Of a DNA stretch of 64,000 nt, positions 56,859 to 63,073 are shown piece after piece. Each line of letters starts with the position of its first letter. Position 1 is the first letter of the stretch. This stretch comes from Erythrobacter fulvus (GTDB lineage Bacteria; Pseudomonadota; Alphaproteobacteria; Sphingomonadales; Sphingomonadaceae). The DNA lies in contig NZ_JAQQXQ010000002.1 in the NCBI RefSeq assembly GCF_028595285.1, positions 62,001 through 126,000 of the forward strand, read 5' to 3'. The translations under genes and the position numbers were made by a program. The notes under the pieces are model-generated. The model did no database searches. It was not told where the DNA came from and saw only the letters and a list, made by a program, of their open reading frames with translations.

Positions 56859-57442
56859 GCCAGCAGCACCCCTTCCTCGCGCAGTGCGCCGAGCAGGGGG
56901 AGCAGCGGCATGCCGAGCACGGTGAACTGGTCGCCCTCGATCGCCTCGAATAGCTGCACCCCCAGCCCCTCAATCCGGAAAGCACCGACGGCGTGGCCGA
57001 TCTCGGGCCATTCGAGGTCGAGATAATGGGCGATGAAATCCTCCGACAGATCGCGCACATGCAGCCGGGCGATGCTGGCATGGCTCCATTGGCAGCCGCC
57101 GTCTTTGACCAGCGCCGCGGCGGAGTGCAATTCCATCACCTGGCCGGAGAAGAACCGCAGGTGCTCCCCCGCCTCATCGCGGCTGCGGGGCTTGTCGAAC
57201 CGCCGCCCGCCCGCGACCACCAGCGAATCCGAACCCAGCACCAGCGCGCCCGGATGCGCCGCTGCCACTGCTGCCGCCTTCGCCACCGCCAGCGCCTCTG
57301 CCACCTCAGCAGGGGCAGCACCGGCCAACCCCGCCTCGACCGCGCGTTCATCGATATCGGCGGGAATGCTCCGGTAAGCCACACCCGCAGCATCGAGCAT
57401 TGCCCGGCGCGAGGCGGACTTGCTGGCAAGGATCAGAGTCAT
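56855..57442 (-). CDS. maf: Maf-family nucleoside triphosphate pyrophosphatase
   Basis: House-cleaning pyrophosphatase that hydrolyses non-canonical or excess nucleoside triphosphates. 195 residues with the Maf start LILASKSASRRAMLDAAGV, the acidic pair DIDERAVE, LVLGSDSLVVAGGRRFDKPRSRDEA (catalytic Asp) and C-terminal PLLPLLGALREEGVL. Subfamily (dTTP/UTP or YceF type) is not certain. Overlaps ppsR and aroE. Confidence 0.93.
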   Translation of the reverse strand: MTLILASKSASRRAMLDAAGVAYRSIPADIDERAVEAGLAGAAPAEVAEALAVAKAAAVAAAHPGALVLGSDSLVVAGGRRFDKPRSRDEAGEHLRFFSGQVMELHSAAALVKDGGCQWSHASIARLHVRDLSEDFIAHYLDLEWPEIGHAVGAFRIEGLGVQLFEAIEGDQFTVLGMPLLPLLGALREEGVLLA

Positions 57443-58284
57443 ATCGGCTTTCCCGTCCCGCCCTCGCTCGCGGGCTTGCGGTCGCGTTCCTGCGCCAGCC
57501 GGATGATCGCCGCCGCGGTCTCCTCGATCGATCGGCGGGTGACGTCGATCACCGGCCAGCCATTATCGGCATACATCCGCCGTGCGAATTGCAGCTCGGC
57601 CTTCACCCGGTCGCTATCGACATAGGCAGTCTCGGTCGCCTCGTTCAGCGACAGCAAGCGGTTGCGGCGGATCTGCACCAACCGTTCGGGCGAGGTGGTA
57701 AGGCCCACCACCAGTGGATGGCGCAGGCCGAACAGCGCGGGCGGCGGGGGGCTTTCCACCACCAGCGGGATGTTGGCGGTCTTGTAGCCGCGATTGGCGA
57801 GGTAGATCGACGTCGGCGTCTTGGACGATCGCGACACGCCGACCAGCACGATATCGGCCTGCTCCCATTCCTCGTAACCGATGCCGTCGTCATGGGCGAT
57901 GGTGTACTGGATCGCATCGACGCGGCGGAAATAGTCCGCGTCCATCATGTGCTGGCGGCCCGGACGCCCGTGCGCTTCCTGCCCAAGCTGGGCTTCGAGC
58001 GCGGCGGTCACCTGATCGAGCACCGGCACGGCGGGCAGGCCGAGATGGCGGCAATGTTCCTCCAGCCGCTTGCGGGTTTCAGGATTGACGAGGGTGTAGA
58101 GCACCAGCCCGGGATGCGCGGCAAGATCGGGGACGATCCGGTCAAGGTGCTGGAGCGAGCGGACCATCGGCCAGAAATGGCGGCTGACATCGGGATCGTC
58201 GAACTGCGCGAGCGCCGCCTTGGCGATCATTTCCAGCGTTTCGCCGGTCGAATCCGATACCAGGTGCAGGTTGAGTCGGTTCAT
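57439..58284 (-). CDS. ppsR: PEP synthase regulatory protein, bifunctional kinase/pyrophosphorylase (DUF299)
   Basis: ADP-dependent kinase/phosphorylase of the PSRP family, which toggles PEP synthase or pyruvate phosphate dikinase. 281 residues. LHLVSDSTGETLEMIAKAAL at the N-terminus, the P-loop-like VGVSRSSKTPTSIYLANRGYKTANIPLV, and a C-terminal GWPVIDVTRRSIEETAAAII with the conserved Ser. The target enzyme gene is not in the window. First gene to the left of the proposed origin, as is its orthologue in Caulobacter. ATG 58284. Confidence 0.94.
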   Translation of the reverse strand: MNRLNLHLVSDSTGETLEMIAKAALAQFDDPDVSRHFWPMVRSLQHLDRIVPDLAAHPGLVLYTLVNPETRKRLEEHCRHLGLPAVPVLDQVTAALEAQLGQEAHGRPGRQHMMDADYFRRVDAIQYTIAHDDGIGYEEWEQADIVLVGVSRSSKTPTSIYLANRGYKTANIPLVVESPPPPALFGLRHPLVVGLTTSPERLVQIRRNRLLSLNEATETAYVDSDRVKAELQFARRMYADNGWPVIDVTRRSIEETAAAIIRLAQERDRKPASEGGTGKPI

Positions 58285-58610
58285 GCGGGCGCGGCTCGGG
58301 TTCGGGCTGTGGACAGATGGGGGCATAAACCACGGGAGCAATTGCCGGACAAGCTGCGGAGCAATTTTCCTACCCGCTACCGGCCTTTTCACCGGGGTAT
58401 TTGTCGACACGGGACAGGATTTGTCGACAGGCTGTGAAGACTGAGGATAAAGCCTGCTTGACGTCCAGTCCGTGCGGATTCGGTGGGGGGTCAATAGGAC
58501 TGGCGCGGCTGGGGGTAATCGGGCAGGAACCGGTAATTCCCGCTTTCCACAGGGCCAACAGACTCCATCAATCCTTTTATAATTTGTTTTGATTTGTTTT
58601 AAGGAACGCC
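58285..58610. other. Proposed chromosomal replication origin (oriC)
   Basis: This 326-bp gap separates leftward ppsR from rightward hemE, the location of the Caulobacter origin. It holds two copies of TTGTCGACA (58401-58409 and 58421-58429) exactly 20 bp apart. DnaA-box-like words are TGTGGACAG (58308-58316), TGAGGATAA (58442-58450, one mismatch to TGTGGATAA) and TTTCCACAG (58544-58552). There are two GANTC sites (58477 and 58561) and an AT-rich segment (58570-58603) with a tandem 10-mer (A/G)ATTTGTTTT, suited to unwinding. The hemE promoter must also lie here. DnaA boxes are degenerate, so the assignment rests on context plus composition. Confidence 0.75.
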
Positions 58611-59627
58611 ATGCCCGGTCCGCTTCTCGATACGCTCAAAGGTGTCCGTCAGGACGTCGCCCCCGTCTGGCTCATGCGTCAGGCGGGCCGTTATCTCCCT
58701 GAATACAGGGCGCTTCGTGCAGAAAAAGGCGGGTTTCTCGAACTCGTTTACGACAGCGAAGCCGCGGCCGAAATCACCGTGCAGCCGATCCGGCGCTTCG
58801 GGTTTGACGGGGCAATCCTGTTTTCCGACATCCTGATCGTGCCGCATGCCATGGGACAGGGGCTGGCCTTCATGGCGGGCGAGGGGCCCAAGCTGTCGCC
58901 GACGCTGCTTGAGGTCGGGCTCGATTCCTTCACCCCGGCTTTCGAACGGTTCGAACCGGTCTATGAAACCGTACGGCTCACCCGCCAGCAGATCGGGCCG
59001 CAGGTCACGATGCTCGGCTTTGCGGGCAGCCCGTGGACGGTCGCGACCTACATGATCGCGGGCGAGGGATCGAAGGACCAGGGCGCGGCGCGGTTGCTGG
59101 CCTATCGCGATCCGGCGCATATGCAGGCGATCGTGGATGCGATCATTGATGTCTCGGTCACCTATCTGCGCGGCCAGATCGATGCAGGCGCGGAAGCGGT
59201 GCAGCTGTTCGACAGCTGGGCCGGCAGTCTGGCGCCCGACCAATTCGAAAAGTGGGTCGTCGCACCGAACGCCGCAATCACCGCGAAGCTCAAGGAATCG
59301 CACCCTGAAGCGCCCGTGATCGGCTTTCCCAAGGGAGCAGGTGCGAAGCTGCCTGCCTATGCCCGCGAAACGGGTGTGGATGCGGTTGGTCTCGACGAAA
59401 CGCTTGATCCGGTCTGGGCGCATGAAAGCCTGCCCGAAGGCATGCCGGTGCAGGGCAATTTCGATCCGCTGCTGCTCGAAGCGGGCGGGCCGGCGCTGGC
59501 CGCACGGGTGAAGACGATAATCGACGCCTTCGGGGATCGTCCCCATGTCTTCAATCTCGGCCACGGGATCGGCCAGCACACGCCGATCGCCCATGTCGAG
59601 GAACTGCTCGCGGCGCTGAGGGGCTAA
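58611..59627 (+). CDS. hemE: Uroporphyrinogen decarboxylase
   Basis: Decarboxylates uroporphyrinogen III to coproporphyrinogen III in haem and chlorophyll synthesis. 338 residues. N-terminal VWLMRQAGRYLPEYR carries the conserved Arg residues; ILFSDILIVPHAMG holds the active-site Asp; FAGSPWTVATYMIAGEGSKD and FNLGHGIGQHTPIAHVEEL follow. Full length. AAGGAACGCC precedes ATG 58611. It borders the proposed origin, and hemJ follows 5 bp after it. Confidence 0.96.
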   Translation: MPGPLLDTLKGVRQDVAPVWLMRQAGRYLPEYRALRAEKGGFLELVYDSEAAAEITVQPIRRFGFDGAILFSDILIVPHAMGQGLAFMAGEGPKLSPTLLEVGLDSFTPAFERFEPVYETVRLTRQQIGPQVTMLGFAGSPWTVATYMIAGEGSKDQGAARLLAYRDPAHMQAIVDAIIDVSVTYLRGQIDAGAEAVQLFDSWAGSLAPDQFEKWVVAPNAAITAKLKESHPEAPVIGFPKGAGAKLPAYARETGVDAVGLDETLDPVWAHESLPEGMPVQGNFDPLLLEAGGPALAARVKTIIDAFGDRPHVFNLGHGIGQHTPIAHVEELLAALRG

Positions 59628-59631
59628 GGCA

Positions 59632-60075
59632 ATGCAGGAACTGCTCTCGTCGATCTATCTGTTCCTCAAGTCGGGACATGTGATTTTCATGGTGTTCTGG
59701 CTGGCAGGGCTGTTCATGCTGCCGCGCCAGTGCATCTACATGCTCGATCATGCGTCGGGATCGGAAGGTGAGGCGAAGTGGGCGACGCGCATGGGCAAGC
59801 TGCGCAAGATCATCCTGACGCCCTCGCTGGTCATCGTCTGGGTGCTGGGGCTGGCGATGGCCTTCACCATGGGTTTTTTCTCCGACGGCTGGTTCCACGC
59901 CAAGCTGACGCTGGTGCTGGCGATGACGGGTTTTCACGGCTGGCTGGTCGCCCAGACGAAGAAAATGGCCCGCGGCGAGCGCCCCTTGACCGAGGGGCAG
60001 CTGCGCATGATCGGCGAGGTGCCGGGCCTGATGCTGATCGTGATCGTGGTGCTGGTTTATCTGAAGCCGTTCTGA
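59632..60075 (+). CDS. hemJ: HemJ-type protoporphyrinogen IX oxidase
   Basis: Membrane enzyme that oxidises protoporphyrinogen IX to protoporphyrin IX, the HemG/HemY replacement used by most alphaproteobacteria. 147 residues with four helices (SGHVIFMVFWLAGLFML, LTPSLVIVWVLGLAMAF, WFHAKLTLVLAMTGFHGWL, GLMLIVIVVLVYL). The conserved His16 (KSGHVIF) and the Lys in HAKLTLV are present. Follows hemE directly, so two haem steps share a transcript. Confidence 0.92.
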   Translation: MQELLSSIYLFLKSGHVIFMVFWLAGLFMLPRQCIYMLDHASGSEGEAKWATRMGKLRKIILTPSLVIVWVLGLAMAFTMGFFSDGWFHAKLTLVLAMTGFHGWLVAQTKKMARGERPLTEGQLRMIGEVPGLMLIVIVVLVYLKPF

Positions 60076-60185
60076 CCCGCGATTTTACGCGATTGACCGC
60101 GCCGCGCAGGGCATCTATTTCGCGTCTCACCTAATCCGGTGACCGGGGCCATTCCCGCCCCGTCAGGTCTGCTTTCTCCAAGCCC

Positions 60186-60225
60186 GGCCCCTTGTCCAAC
60201 AGGGGCGCCTCTGTTTCCCAGAGGT
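60186..60225 (+). promoter_or_regulatory. Stem-loops in the rho leader
   Basis: GCCCCTTGT with ACAGGGGC (about 60186-60207, one bulge) and CCTCTG with CAGAGG (about 60208-60224) form two consecutive hairpins in the 194-bp leader upstream of rho. No T-run follows. Rho genes are often autoregulated in their leader, so these may belong to such control, but the sequence alone does not show it. Confidence 0.35.
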
Positions 60226-60269
60226 ACTGACCATCCGGCCACTCCTGCTCTTTTTCGGAAATACACGAC

Positions 60270-61535
60270 ATGCATCTGAAGGACCTCAAGCGAAAGACCC
60301 CGGCCGAACTGGTCGCGATGGCGGAAGAACTGGGCGTCGAAGGCGCATCGACCATGCGCCGTCAGGATCTGCTGTTCAGCATCCTGCGCGAACTCGCCGA
60401 GGACGAGGAATACGAAGAAAAGATCATGGGCATCGGCACCATCGAGGTGCTGCAGGACGGTTTCGGCTTCCTGCGCTCGCCCGAGGCGAACTACCTGGCC
60501 GGGCCGGATGACATCTACGTTTCGCCTAACCAAGTCCGCCGCTGGGGCCTGCGCACCGGCGACACCGTCGAAGGCGAAATCCGTGCGCCCCGTGACGGCG
60601 AGCGCTATTTCGCGCTGACCAGCCTTGCCAAGGTCAATTTCGACGATCCCGAAGCGGTGCGTCTGCGCACCAATTTCGACAACCTCACCCCGCTCTATCC
60701 CGATTCCAAGCTGCGGCTCGATAGCCTCGATCCGACGATCAAGGACAAGAGCGCGAGGGTGATCGATATCATCGCCCCGCAGGGCAAAGGCCAGCGCGCG
60801 CTGATCGTCGCGCCGCCGCGCACCGGTAAAACCGTGCTGCTGCAGAACATCGCCAAGGCGATCACCGACAACCACCCTGAGGTGTTCCTGATCGTCCTTC
60901 TGGTCGACGAACGTCCCGAGGAAGTCACCGACATGCAGCGCAGCGTGAAGGGCGAGGTTGTCTCCTCGACCTTCGACGAACCCGCACAGCGCCACGTGCA
61001 GGTCGCCGAAATGGTGATCGAAAAGGCCAAGCGCCTGGTCGAGCACAAGCATGACGTGGTAATCCTGCTCGATTCCATCACGCGTCTGGGCCGCGCTTAC
61101 AACACCGTGGTGCCGTCTTCCGGCAAGGTGCTGACCGGCGGTGTGGACGCCAACGCGCTGCAGCGGCCCAAGCGCTTCTTCGGCGCGGCGCGCAACATCG
61201 AGGAAGGCGGTTCGCTCTCGATCATCGCCACCGCGCTGATCGACACCGGCAGCCGCATGGACGAAGTGATCTTCGAAGAGTTCAAGGGCACGGGTAACAG
61301 CGAAATCGTGCTCGATCGTAAGGTTGCCGACAAGCGCATCTTCCCCGCATTGGATGTCGGCAAGTCCGGCACCCGCAAGGAAGAACTGCTGGTCGAGAAG
61401 GATCGCCTGTCGAAGATGTGGGTGCTGCGCCGCATCCTGATGCAGATGGGCACCGTAGATGCGATGGAGTTCCTGCTGGACAAGATGAAGGATTCGAAGA
61501 CCAACGACGATTTCTTCGATACGATGAACCAGTAA
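60270..61535 (+). CDS. rho: Transcription termination factor Rho
   Basis: Hexameric RNA-dependent ATPase that ends transcription. 421 residues. The N-terminal Rho_N helical segment ([22 protein letters not shown]) precedes the OB-fold RNA site with [23 protein letters not shown]. The ATPase core has Walker [13 protein letters not shown], the ERPEEVTDM segment, Walker [17 protein letters not shown] and the R-loop region [27 protein letters not shown]. Usual length. Leader of 194 bp after hemJ. Confidence 0.97.
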
Positions 61536-62378: not shown

Positions 62379-63073
62379 GCCAGATGCTCGGCGAAGAAGG
62401 CGGCGGTGCGGCTGTCGGCGAGGTTGGCGGTGTCTTCCACCCGGCGCTTGCCGTGTTCGGTGGCGAAGCCATGGTCGAGCCCGTCGTAATCATGCAGCGT
62501 CACGCGCGGATGATCGTCCAGCCCTGCGTGCATCGCTTCCTGTGTTTCACGTGGAACAAAGCCGTCAGCGGTGGGAATGTGCAGCATCAGCGGATTGGCG
62601 ATCGCGTGCTTCTCGCCCAGCAACCCGTCGATGCCGACCCCGTAATAACCGACGCTCGCATCGATATCGGTGCGCGCCGCCGTCATATAGGCGAGCCGTC
62701 CGCCGAGGCAGTAACCGACGCATCCGACCTTCGCGACGCCTAGGGTGCGCCGGATGTGGTGAATGGTCGCTTCGATATCGCGGATGCCCTGATCCTGATT
62801 GAACTTGCCCATCAGATCGAGCGCAGTCTGGAATTCGCTCTCCACATCGGGATCAAGCGAAACTTCGGGCTGAAGCCGCCAGAACAGATCCGGCGCGACG
62901 GCGAGATAGCCTTCGGCTGCCAGCTTGTCGCATTTCTGGCGGATGCCCGGGTTCACCCCGAAGATTTCCTGGATGACGATGATCGCGCCCTTGGGCGCGC
63001 CTTCGGGCTTGGCGACATAGGCCCCGAAGCTGGCGTCGCCTTCGAGGGTGGGGATGGTTTCGTTGAGGCTCAT
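62375..63073 (-). CDS. Dienelactone hydrolase family protein
   Basis: A 232-residue alpha/beta-hydrolase. The nucleophile is Cys in GYCLGGR (DLH type), with Asp in DGFVPRETQ-like segment and His in YDGLDHGFATEHGK. The start QEIFGVNPGIRQKCDKLAAEGYLAVAPDLFWRLQP matches the family. Substrate unknown; dienelactone itself is only one possibility. ATG 63073 chosen over the longer frame. Confidence 0.87.
   Translation of the reverse strand: MSLNETIPTLEGDASFGAYVAKPEGAPKGAIIVIQEIFGVNPGIRQKCDKLAAEGYLAVAPDLFWRLQPEVSLDPDVESEFQTALDLMGKFNQDQGIRDIEATIHHIRRTLGVAKVGCVGYCLGGRLAYMTAARTDIDASVGYYGVGIDGLLGEKHAIANPLMLHIPTADGFVPRETQEAMHAGLDDHPRVTLHDYDGLDHGFATEHGKRRVEDTANLADSRTAAFFAEHLA

Follow-up and report, generated by a model that had tools for sequence, protein, structure and literature searches.

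The window analysed here, a 64,000-nt stretch of an Erythrobacter fulvus contig, contains an intergenic gap of 326 bp from which ppsR and hemE diverge (Table 1). Beyond ppsR on the minus strand lie maf, aroE, coaE and a gene for a dnaQ-type exonuclease, the full order falling inside the window, and hemE is followed by a hemJ-type gene (UPF0093) and then by rho. The original prediction, which placed the chromosomal replication origin in this gap partly on the strength of a gene order shared with Caulobacter crescentus, had also described most of its contents, and these were recovered: a word, TTGTCGACA, duplicated at an exact spacing of 20 bp start to start and lying within an 11-mer repeat, ATTTGTCGACA; three DnaA-box-like words; two GANTC sites; and an AT-rich tract before hemE with a tandem 10-mer, (A/G)ATTTGTTTT, at 58581-58600.

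Table 1. Features of the ppsR/hemE region (window coordinates; conservation refers to the 16 close Erythrobacter-type gaps)
Feature	Position	Strand	Remarks
ppsR (PF03618)	57439-58284	-	family match
Candidate oriC, ppsR (DUF299)/hemE intergenic gap	58285-58610	.	synteny, box and GANTC enrichment, relatives' skew
DnaA-box-like box 1, CTGTCCACAG (word CTGTCCACA at 58308-58316)	58307-58316	-	TGTGGA core identical in at least 15/16
Conserved GCATAAACCACGGGA and ACAAG blocks	58323-58353	-	each identical in at least 15/16
TTGTCGACA copy A, read as degenerate DnaA-box position	58401-58409	+	exact in 3/16; terminal ACA 16/16
TTGTCGACA copy B, read as degenerate DnaA-box position	58421-58429	+	exact in 6/16; aligns with TTATCCACA in L033
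DnaA-box-like box C, TTATCCTCA	58442-58450	-	21 bp after copy B; TATCC core 14/16, read off alignment
CTTGAC plus GATTCG (GANTC/GAKTCG), candidate CcrM/GcrA-type element; GANTC at 58477-58481	58457-58482	+	CTTGAC at least 15/16; GAKTCG 16/16
Block GGTAATTCCC..TTTCCACAGGGCCAACAGACTCC with box D, CTTTCCACA (58543-58551, plus), and second GANTC (58561-58565)	58532-58566	+	runs identical in at least 15/16
AT-rich tract, presumed duplex-unwinding element	58567-58606	+	20% GC, the lowest-GC 40-bp window
hemE (PF01208)	58611-59627	+	family match
First parS-type site of the origin-proximal cluster, TGTTTCACGTGGAACA	62543-62558	.	one mismatch; five more at C12:126006-129280, just past the window

Anatomy and conservation of the ppsR/hemE gap

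Comparison of at least 80 relatives with the own locus (81 hemE loci examined) revealed that, among the matches listed, a divergent ppsR match stands beside hemE in 57 of 81. The arrangement holds for 36/36 of the listed loci classed as Sphingomonadales-type by HemE identity of at least 63% (L001, L003-L034, L044, L045 and L055), some of which carry vague titles (e.g., L025 and L026) and one of which, L034, is titled Bacillus, a name that its sequence does not fit. The other 24 of the 81 listed loci, in which no ppsR match was found, all belong to more distant relatives outside this set.

The 36 gaps together contain 78 words that differ from TTWTCCACA at no more than one position, where 50 dinucleotide shuffles gave a mean of 4.3 and a maximum of 10, and GANTC occurs 163 times against a shuffled mean of 47.9 and a maximum of 63. 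Because these gaps come from related loci, neither total represents independent counts. The own gap contains two such box words (shuffled mean 0.08) and none identical to TTATCCACA; the gap of L022 is the sole one of the 36 without any word within one mismatch. The two GANTC sites of the own gap, taken alone, are not above chance (shuffled mean 1.18). GANTC is depleted along 340 kb of the own contig, with 467 found where 1154 would be expected from base composition or 1465 from dinucleotides.

Several runs are identical in at least 15 of the 16 close gaps, namely TGTGGA (box 1), GCATAAACCACGGGA, ACAAG, CTTGAC, GGTAATTCCC, TCCACAGGGCCAACA and ACTCC, and in some Sphingomonas gaps the position of box 1 is occupied by a TTATCCACA-type word. 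Alignment to L012, L015 and L016 covers 293-310 of the 326 bases of the gap. In the one gap used as a control, between hemJ and rho, 154-184 of 194 bases were covered in the six nearest species and 30, 22 and 97 in L012, L015 and L016, respectively. The lowest-GC 40-bp window begins 42-80 nt before hemE in all 36 gaps, with a GC content of 17-40%; this AT-richness is conserved in relatives and the tandem 10-mer itself is not. No structured RNA was found by Rfam search (E up to 1) in 57400-60300, and a consensus scan of 58200-58700 yielded neither sigma-70 promoters nor terminators. The GCATAAACCACGGGA/ACAAG region might possibly serve as the ppsR promoter, if TTGTCC and TTTATG, separated by 17 bp on the minus strand, are read as its elements.

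GAKTCG is present in 16/16 close gaps, as either GATTCG or GAGTCG; the methylation motif thus persists even though the base at its centre differs between gaps. The second GANTC is retained in 14/16, as read off the alignment. A GcrA-family gene scored above the family cut-off on contig C18, as did one archaeal control. CtrA recognizes the motif TTAA-N7-TTAA. The full site was present in 0/36 Sphingomonadales-type gaps and in 2/21 other alphaproteobacterial gaps, and CtrA control of the gap was rejected on the former count.

Placement of the probable origin and its proposed initiator boxes

The GC-skew turn that the original prediction looked for at the gap proved weak on the own contig; two relatives, NAP1 and G260, do show one at or close to the corresponding gap. 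On the own contig, skew over 100 kb is 0.0037 to the left and 0.0089 to the right, and over 20 kb -0.0061 and +0.0279, with no clear turn beyond 20-50 kb. NAP1 was sampled in 40 stretches (600 kb) of a 3,265,065-bp contig, on which hemE (2.676 Mb) and dnaA (2.295 Mb) lie 380 kb apart. The best contrast falls at 2.68-2.74 Mb, with a broad shoulder of high contrast to 3.06 Mb; between dnaA and hemE every one of the 10 samples is negative, while 9 of 13 to the right of hemE are positive and 4 negative, and the contrast is 0.021 at hemE versus 0.001 at dnaA. An origin at dnaA was rejected on these data. The congener G260 was sampled in 40 stretches (795 kb) of a single 3,618,402-bp contig with its ppsR/hemE gap at ~585.5-585.9 kb. 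Its skew is negative before the gap, about zero at 585-640 kb and mostly positive beyond, apart from three negative samples in the positive arc and one positive sample in the negative arc; the eight best origins all fall at 0.56-0.70 Mb, led by 640 kb (0.0257) and 580 kb (0.0243), and the opposite turn lies at 2.44-2.50 Mb.

Six parS-type sites occupy C12:124543-129280, at a distance of 4-9 kb on the right-hand side of the gap; they fall within or close to mnmE, mnmG and rsmG and beside parAB (mnmE, parA and parB were checked by family, the others assigned by reading). All parts of a chromosomal parABS system are thereby present: parS near oriC, parA, and a protein of the ParB/RepB/Spo0J family. 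A search for a Noc paralogue, in which ParB alone was scored, found none over the cut-off, with the chromosomal ParB at 201 bits against 315. Three other ParB_N matches appeared, by reading, to be two methylase fusions and one plasmid-type protein.

Together, synteny, the enrichment of DnaA boxes and GANTC in relatives, the AT-rich flank, the nearby parS sites and parAB, and the skew of two relatives make the assignment of an origin to this gap well supported. It is very probable that the gap is the chromosomal oriC of an Erythrobacter of the former Porphyrobacter type, at which DnaA, GcrA and ParB would act in the manner proposed below. That the gap might be a divergent promoter region only, with the origin elsewhere, e.g., at dnaA, accords with the weak skew of the own contig and with a box-like array behind dnaA; it is nevertheless highly improbable, given that skew turns near the gap in G260 and in NAP1, in the latter not at dnaA, and that the gap has parS sites and parAB in its vicinity. 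The original prediction had itself named a skew minimum or a dnaA- or parABS-linked origin elsewhere, together with a lack of conservation of the repeated words, as the finding that would speak against it; the parS cluster adjoins the gap, and NAP1 has no skew turn at dnaA.

The gene for DnaA, which lies away from the ppsR/hemE gap, was found in 19 of 20 genomes searched, G304 being the exception. The array at its 3' side consists of words such as CTTTCGACAG, TGATCCACAG, CTGTCGACAG, CAGTGCACAG and CTGTAAACAG, spaced 12, 12, 11 and 11 bp apart. A run of four or five words phased at 11-12 bp was present in 8 of the 11 Erythrobacteraceae arrays measured; the array is partial or absent in L125, L126 and L132, and by reading no such run occurs in L130 and L131. 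Arrays of this kind lie at L002:2549-2604 and in L121-L124 and L127-L129, with words of the TCGACAG, TCCACAG, TGCACAG and TAAACAG types. In these arrays words with TCGACAG alternate with TCCACAG-type words, and the array is possibly a site of DnaA titration or autoregulation.

The positions of copies A and B recur at 20-bp spacing in 16/16 close gaps, including those in which the exact word is replaced (Table 1). In close relatives, box position 6 varies (G, C, A or T) while ACA is constant, and an alignment of 24 gaps matched copy B to the classical box TTATCCACA of Stakelama (L033). The TTGTCGACA words can be read as degenerate DnaA boxes, presumably of low affinity, that occupy old box positions. 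The proposal of the original prediction that they may form a lineage-specific initiator or regulator site is borne out in part: the exact word and its exact duplication are special, and the positions are shared. The exact 20-bp doublet occurs once in the own genome and in 1 of 298 family genomes, the own included. With the retention of either exact copy in so few close gaps, its rarity makes it quite likely, compatibly with an oriC here, that the duplication reflects chance convergence of two degenerate boxes with no role as a doublet, although the 20-bp spacing itself is kept throughout.

Binding of TTGTCGACA by a protein other than DnaA, for instance a regulator particular to this lineage that acts within an oriC on ppsR/hemE or on initiation, is the less probable reading and is regarded as unlikely. 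It would account for TGTCGACA being a perfect 8-bp palindrome, which is unusual for a DnaA box, for the deviation of G at position 6 from the DnaA-box consensus, and for the over-representation of the word in the own genome (35 matches versus 14 for the reversed-pattern control). It fits less well with the variability of position 6 beside a constant ACA, the alignment of copy B with a classical box, and the presence behind dnaA of a phased array in which TCGACAG and TCCACAG-type words alternate. TTGTCGACA also occurs within a 10-bp palindrome, TTGTCGACAA, at five other places in the own genome (G000 C1:172884, C7:29826, C14:61678, C17:83333 and C18:42619).

The reading of TTGTCGACA as a DnaA box, extended to the dnaA arrays, suggests that Erythrobacter initiator boxes have drifted to the TCGACAG type, in which case tools that rely on the consensus box may undercount them. 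Altered DnaA specificity was considered as a cause and rejected: the helix GGRDHSTVIHAV is identical in 13 Erythrobacteraceae copies (the Sphingomonadaceae copies L133-L137 lay outside the comparison), and thus nothing there explains the drift.

For a DnaA-driven oriC in the gap, protein binding, melting, methylation and regulation can be envisaged as follows. DnaA would bind box 1, box C and the two TTGTCGACA copies; copy A, copy B and box C, with starts 20 and 21 bp apart, would lie on the same face of the helix. DnaA would then extend to box D and melt the AT-rich tract before hemE, allowing helicase loading, and replication would proceed bidirectionally from the gap. CcrM would methylate the two GANTC sites, one of which lies within the CTTGAC..GAKTCG element, and GcrA would read them, so that either origin firing or hemE transcription would be coupled to replication. 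ParB would load at the parS cluster to the right of the gap and segregate the new origins.

Dispersed parS-type palindromes

The own genome contains 28 parS-type sites, distributed over 12 of its 20 contigs; 15 are exact and 13 have one mismatch. The reversed-pattern control gave none, and 22 of the 28 lie outside the origin cluster. With the cluster included, 12-69 sites were counted in each of the 7/7 genomes tested from the own clade (L003, 20; L004, 15; L006, 12; L007, 69; L009, 35; L019, 16) and 0-3 in 8/8 related genomes (2-3 in L011, L012 and L014-L018, and 0 in L020); four Sphingomonadaceae and Mesorhizobium had 0-2. Exact sites in 298 family genomes number 15 (own), 30 and 16 in three members of the own genus and at most 4 in the other 295, of which 172 have none; four further members of the genus have 0-2. 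In a HemE plus PpsR tree, which also held L005, L008, L010, L013, L022 and L055 without a parS count, the parS-rich genomes group together with a split support of 0.993.

The sites are spread far from the origin. In G260 the origin cluster of six lies at 0.576-0.580 Mb, and the dispersed sites, in a partial list drawn from extended-pattern matches and sampled stretches, lie at 0.258, 0.446, 0.542, 0.701, 1.109, 1.811, 2.199, 2.271, 2.623, 2.998 and 3.266 Mb. The gap of E. oryzae is ~334 kb and 431 kb from the ends of its 765,630-bp contig, and the seven sites located on other contigs are hence separated from it by more than 300 kb. The open-access literature yielded no description of a comparable dispersal for this bacterial group.

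Conservation was followed in 56 sites, comprising 20 of the 22 own dispersed sites and 36 from four other genomes (13/14 and 7/7 dispersed sites of two genomes, and 8 from each of the two genomes that have 35 and 69). The flanks of 13/20 own sites match those of a foreign site (blastn E up to 1e-10); at several shared places the palindrome is kept while adjoining bases are unaligned, and weaker pairs include L159/L152 (77 bp) and L174/L140 (sites ~100 bp apart). A simple codon model places 14/20 own sites in intergenic positions and 9/20 between convergent genes; among 1500 random places on C12 the corresponding numbers are 235 and 23, the convergent background being somewhat too low because one or both neighbours were uncalled in 93 of these places. 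Of all 56 sites, 40 are intergenic and 21 convergent. From these patterns, the dispersed sites look to be under selection.

A longer form of the site was recognized in 24/56, in which GAACA follows the palindrome at a distance of exactly 6 bp, with adjoining TTT in 21; in the opposite reading it is TGTTC-N3-AAAT-GTTYCACGTGAAACA. It occurs in 7/20 own sites, 10/13 of donghaensis, 6/7 of oryzae, 1/8 of HGW-7 and 0/8 of WG, many of these being orthologous and not independent. The extended sites include L164, L165, L166, L168 and L172 and 19 further loci. When searched with up to two mismatches in the 298 genomes, the extended pattern matched 9 times, at 8 sites, in the own genome, 6 times each in G223 and G260, and once each in four others. 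The extension contains GTTC-N7-GTTY, so that the composite overlaps a motif like the alphaproteobacterial LexA box. Of the own extended sites, one lies at the start of an ada-type gene, which scored 340.7 bits and narrowly missed its cut-off of 345, and another at the start of a PA0069 radical-SAM gene. A purely SOS (LexA) function was rejected, in that these two starts fit it but other sites lie between convergent genes.

In strain WG, several sites have 70-98 bp in common, the palindrome among them, and two HGW-7 sites have 113 bp in common; such segments may record how the copies multiplied. Near the WG (L007) loci L141, L143, L147, L151 and L155 are GGGTCT/AGACCC words; the HGW-7 pair is L140 and L148. 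An insertion element carrying parS was rejected as the source, as no two own sites matched each other at E 1e-10 despite the sharing in WG and HGW-7. On balance, and judging from sequence features, it is modestly favored that the dispersed sites are bound by ParB and form a chromosome-wide network for ParB/SMC loading or nucleoid organization.

Comparison with known systems

The origin, oriC, lies near hemE for most Sphingomonadaceae in DoriC, with boxes and an unwinding element (PMC4741004), and a hemE-side oriC has been predicted in Novosphingobium PP1Y (PMC4059872). The Erythrobacter gap resembles the origins of Sphingopyxis and other Sphingomonadaceae in its hemE side, conserved gene order, several DnaA boxes and AT-rich element, and differs in that its box words, of the TCGACAG type, are more degenerate (PMC4741004). 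A hemE-side origin in sphingomonads was thus already known, and it is well supported that the Erythrobacter gap adds another case; no description of an Erythrobacter oriC was found in the open-access literature. The likely replication start of a lineage of aerobic phototrophs is hereby fixed from sequence.

The hemE-side location is shared with Cori of Caulobacter crescentus, whose hemE neighbourhood was reportedly described by Brassinga in 2001. Reduced-affinity DnaA boxes are a second likeness, as Cori uses weak G- and W-boxes; it has five high-affinity CtrA sites, which are absent from most other origins (PMC4468827), whereas the Sphingomonadales-type gaps lack the full CtrA site and the close gaps conserve GAKTCG. 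The base preceding GANTC is G or A here, in contrast to the Y of the Caulobacter motif YGAKTCK (PMC7987155).

The six sites beside parAB agree in placement with published origin-proximal parS clusters, which are mostly confined to the origin domain (PMC7333895, PMC7022226, PMC5815017), whereas the own clade also has chromosome-wide parS-type copies. Partial precedents exist: a few origin-distal sites reportedly occur in B. subtilis (a 2007 paper cited in PMC7333895), P. aeruginosa has ten parS, four of them near oriC (PMC4368675), and its ParB binds hundreds of half-parS (PMC7022226). A second parS cluster in Caulobacter is described as tolerated mainly within ~500 kb of the native one and in a small zone within ~100 kb of the terminus, and as disfavoured at mid-arm (PMC5815017). 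The dispersed parS-type sites are a naturally occurring departure from the clustering of parS near the origin, and why it clusters and what limits ectopic SMC loading become testable in ordinary marine or freshwater bacteria: the chromosome-wide distribution that the parS-type sites of this Erythrobacter clade have is strongly disfavoured in Caulobacter (PMC5815017).
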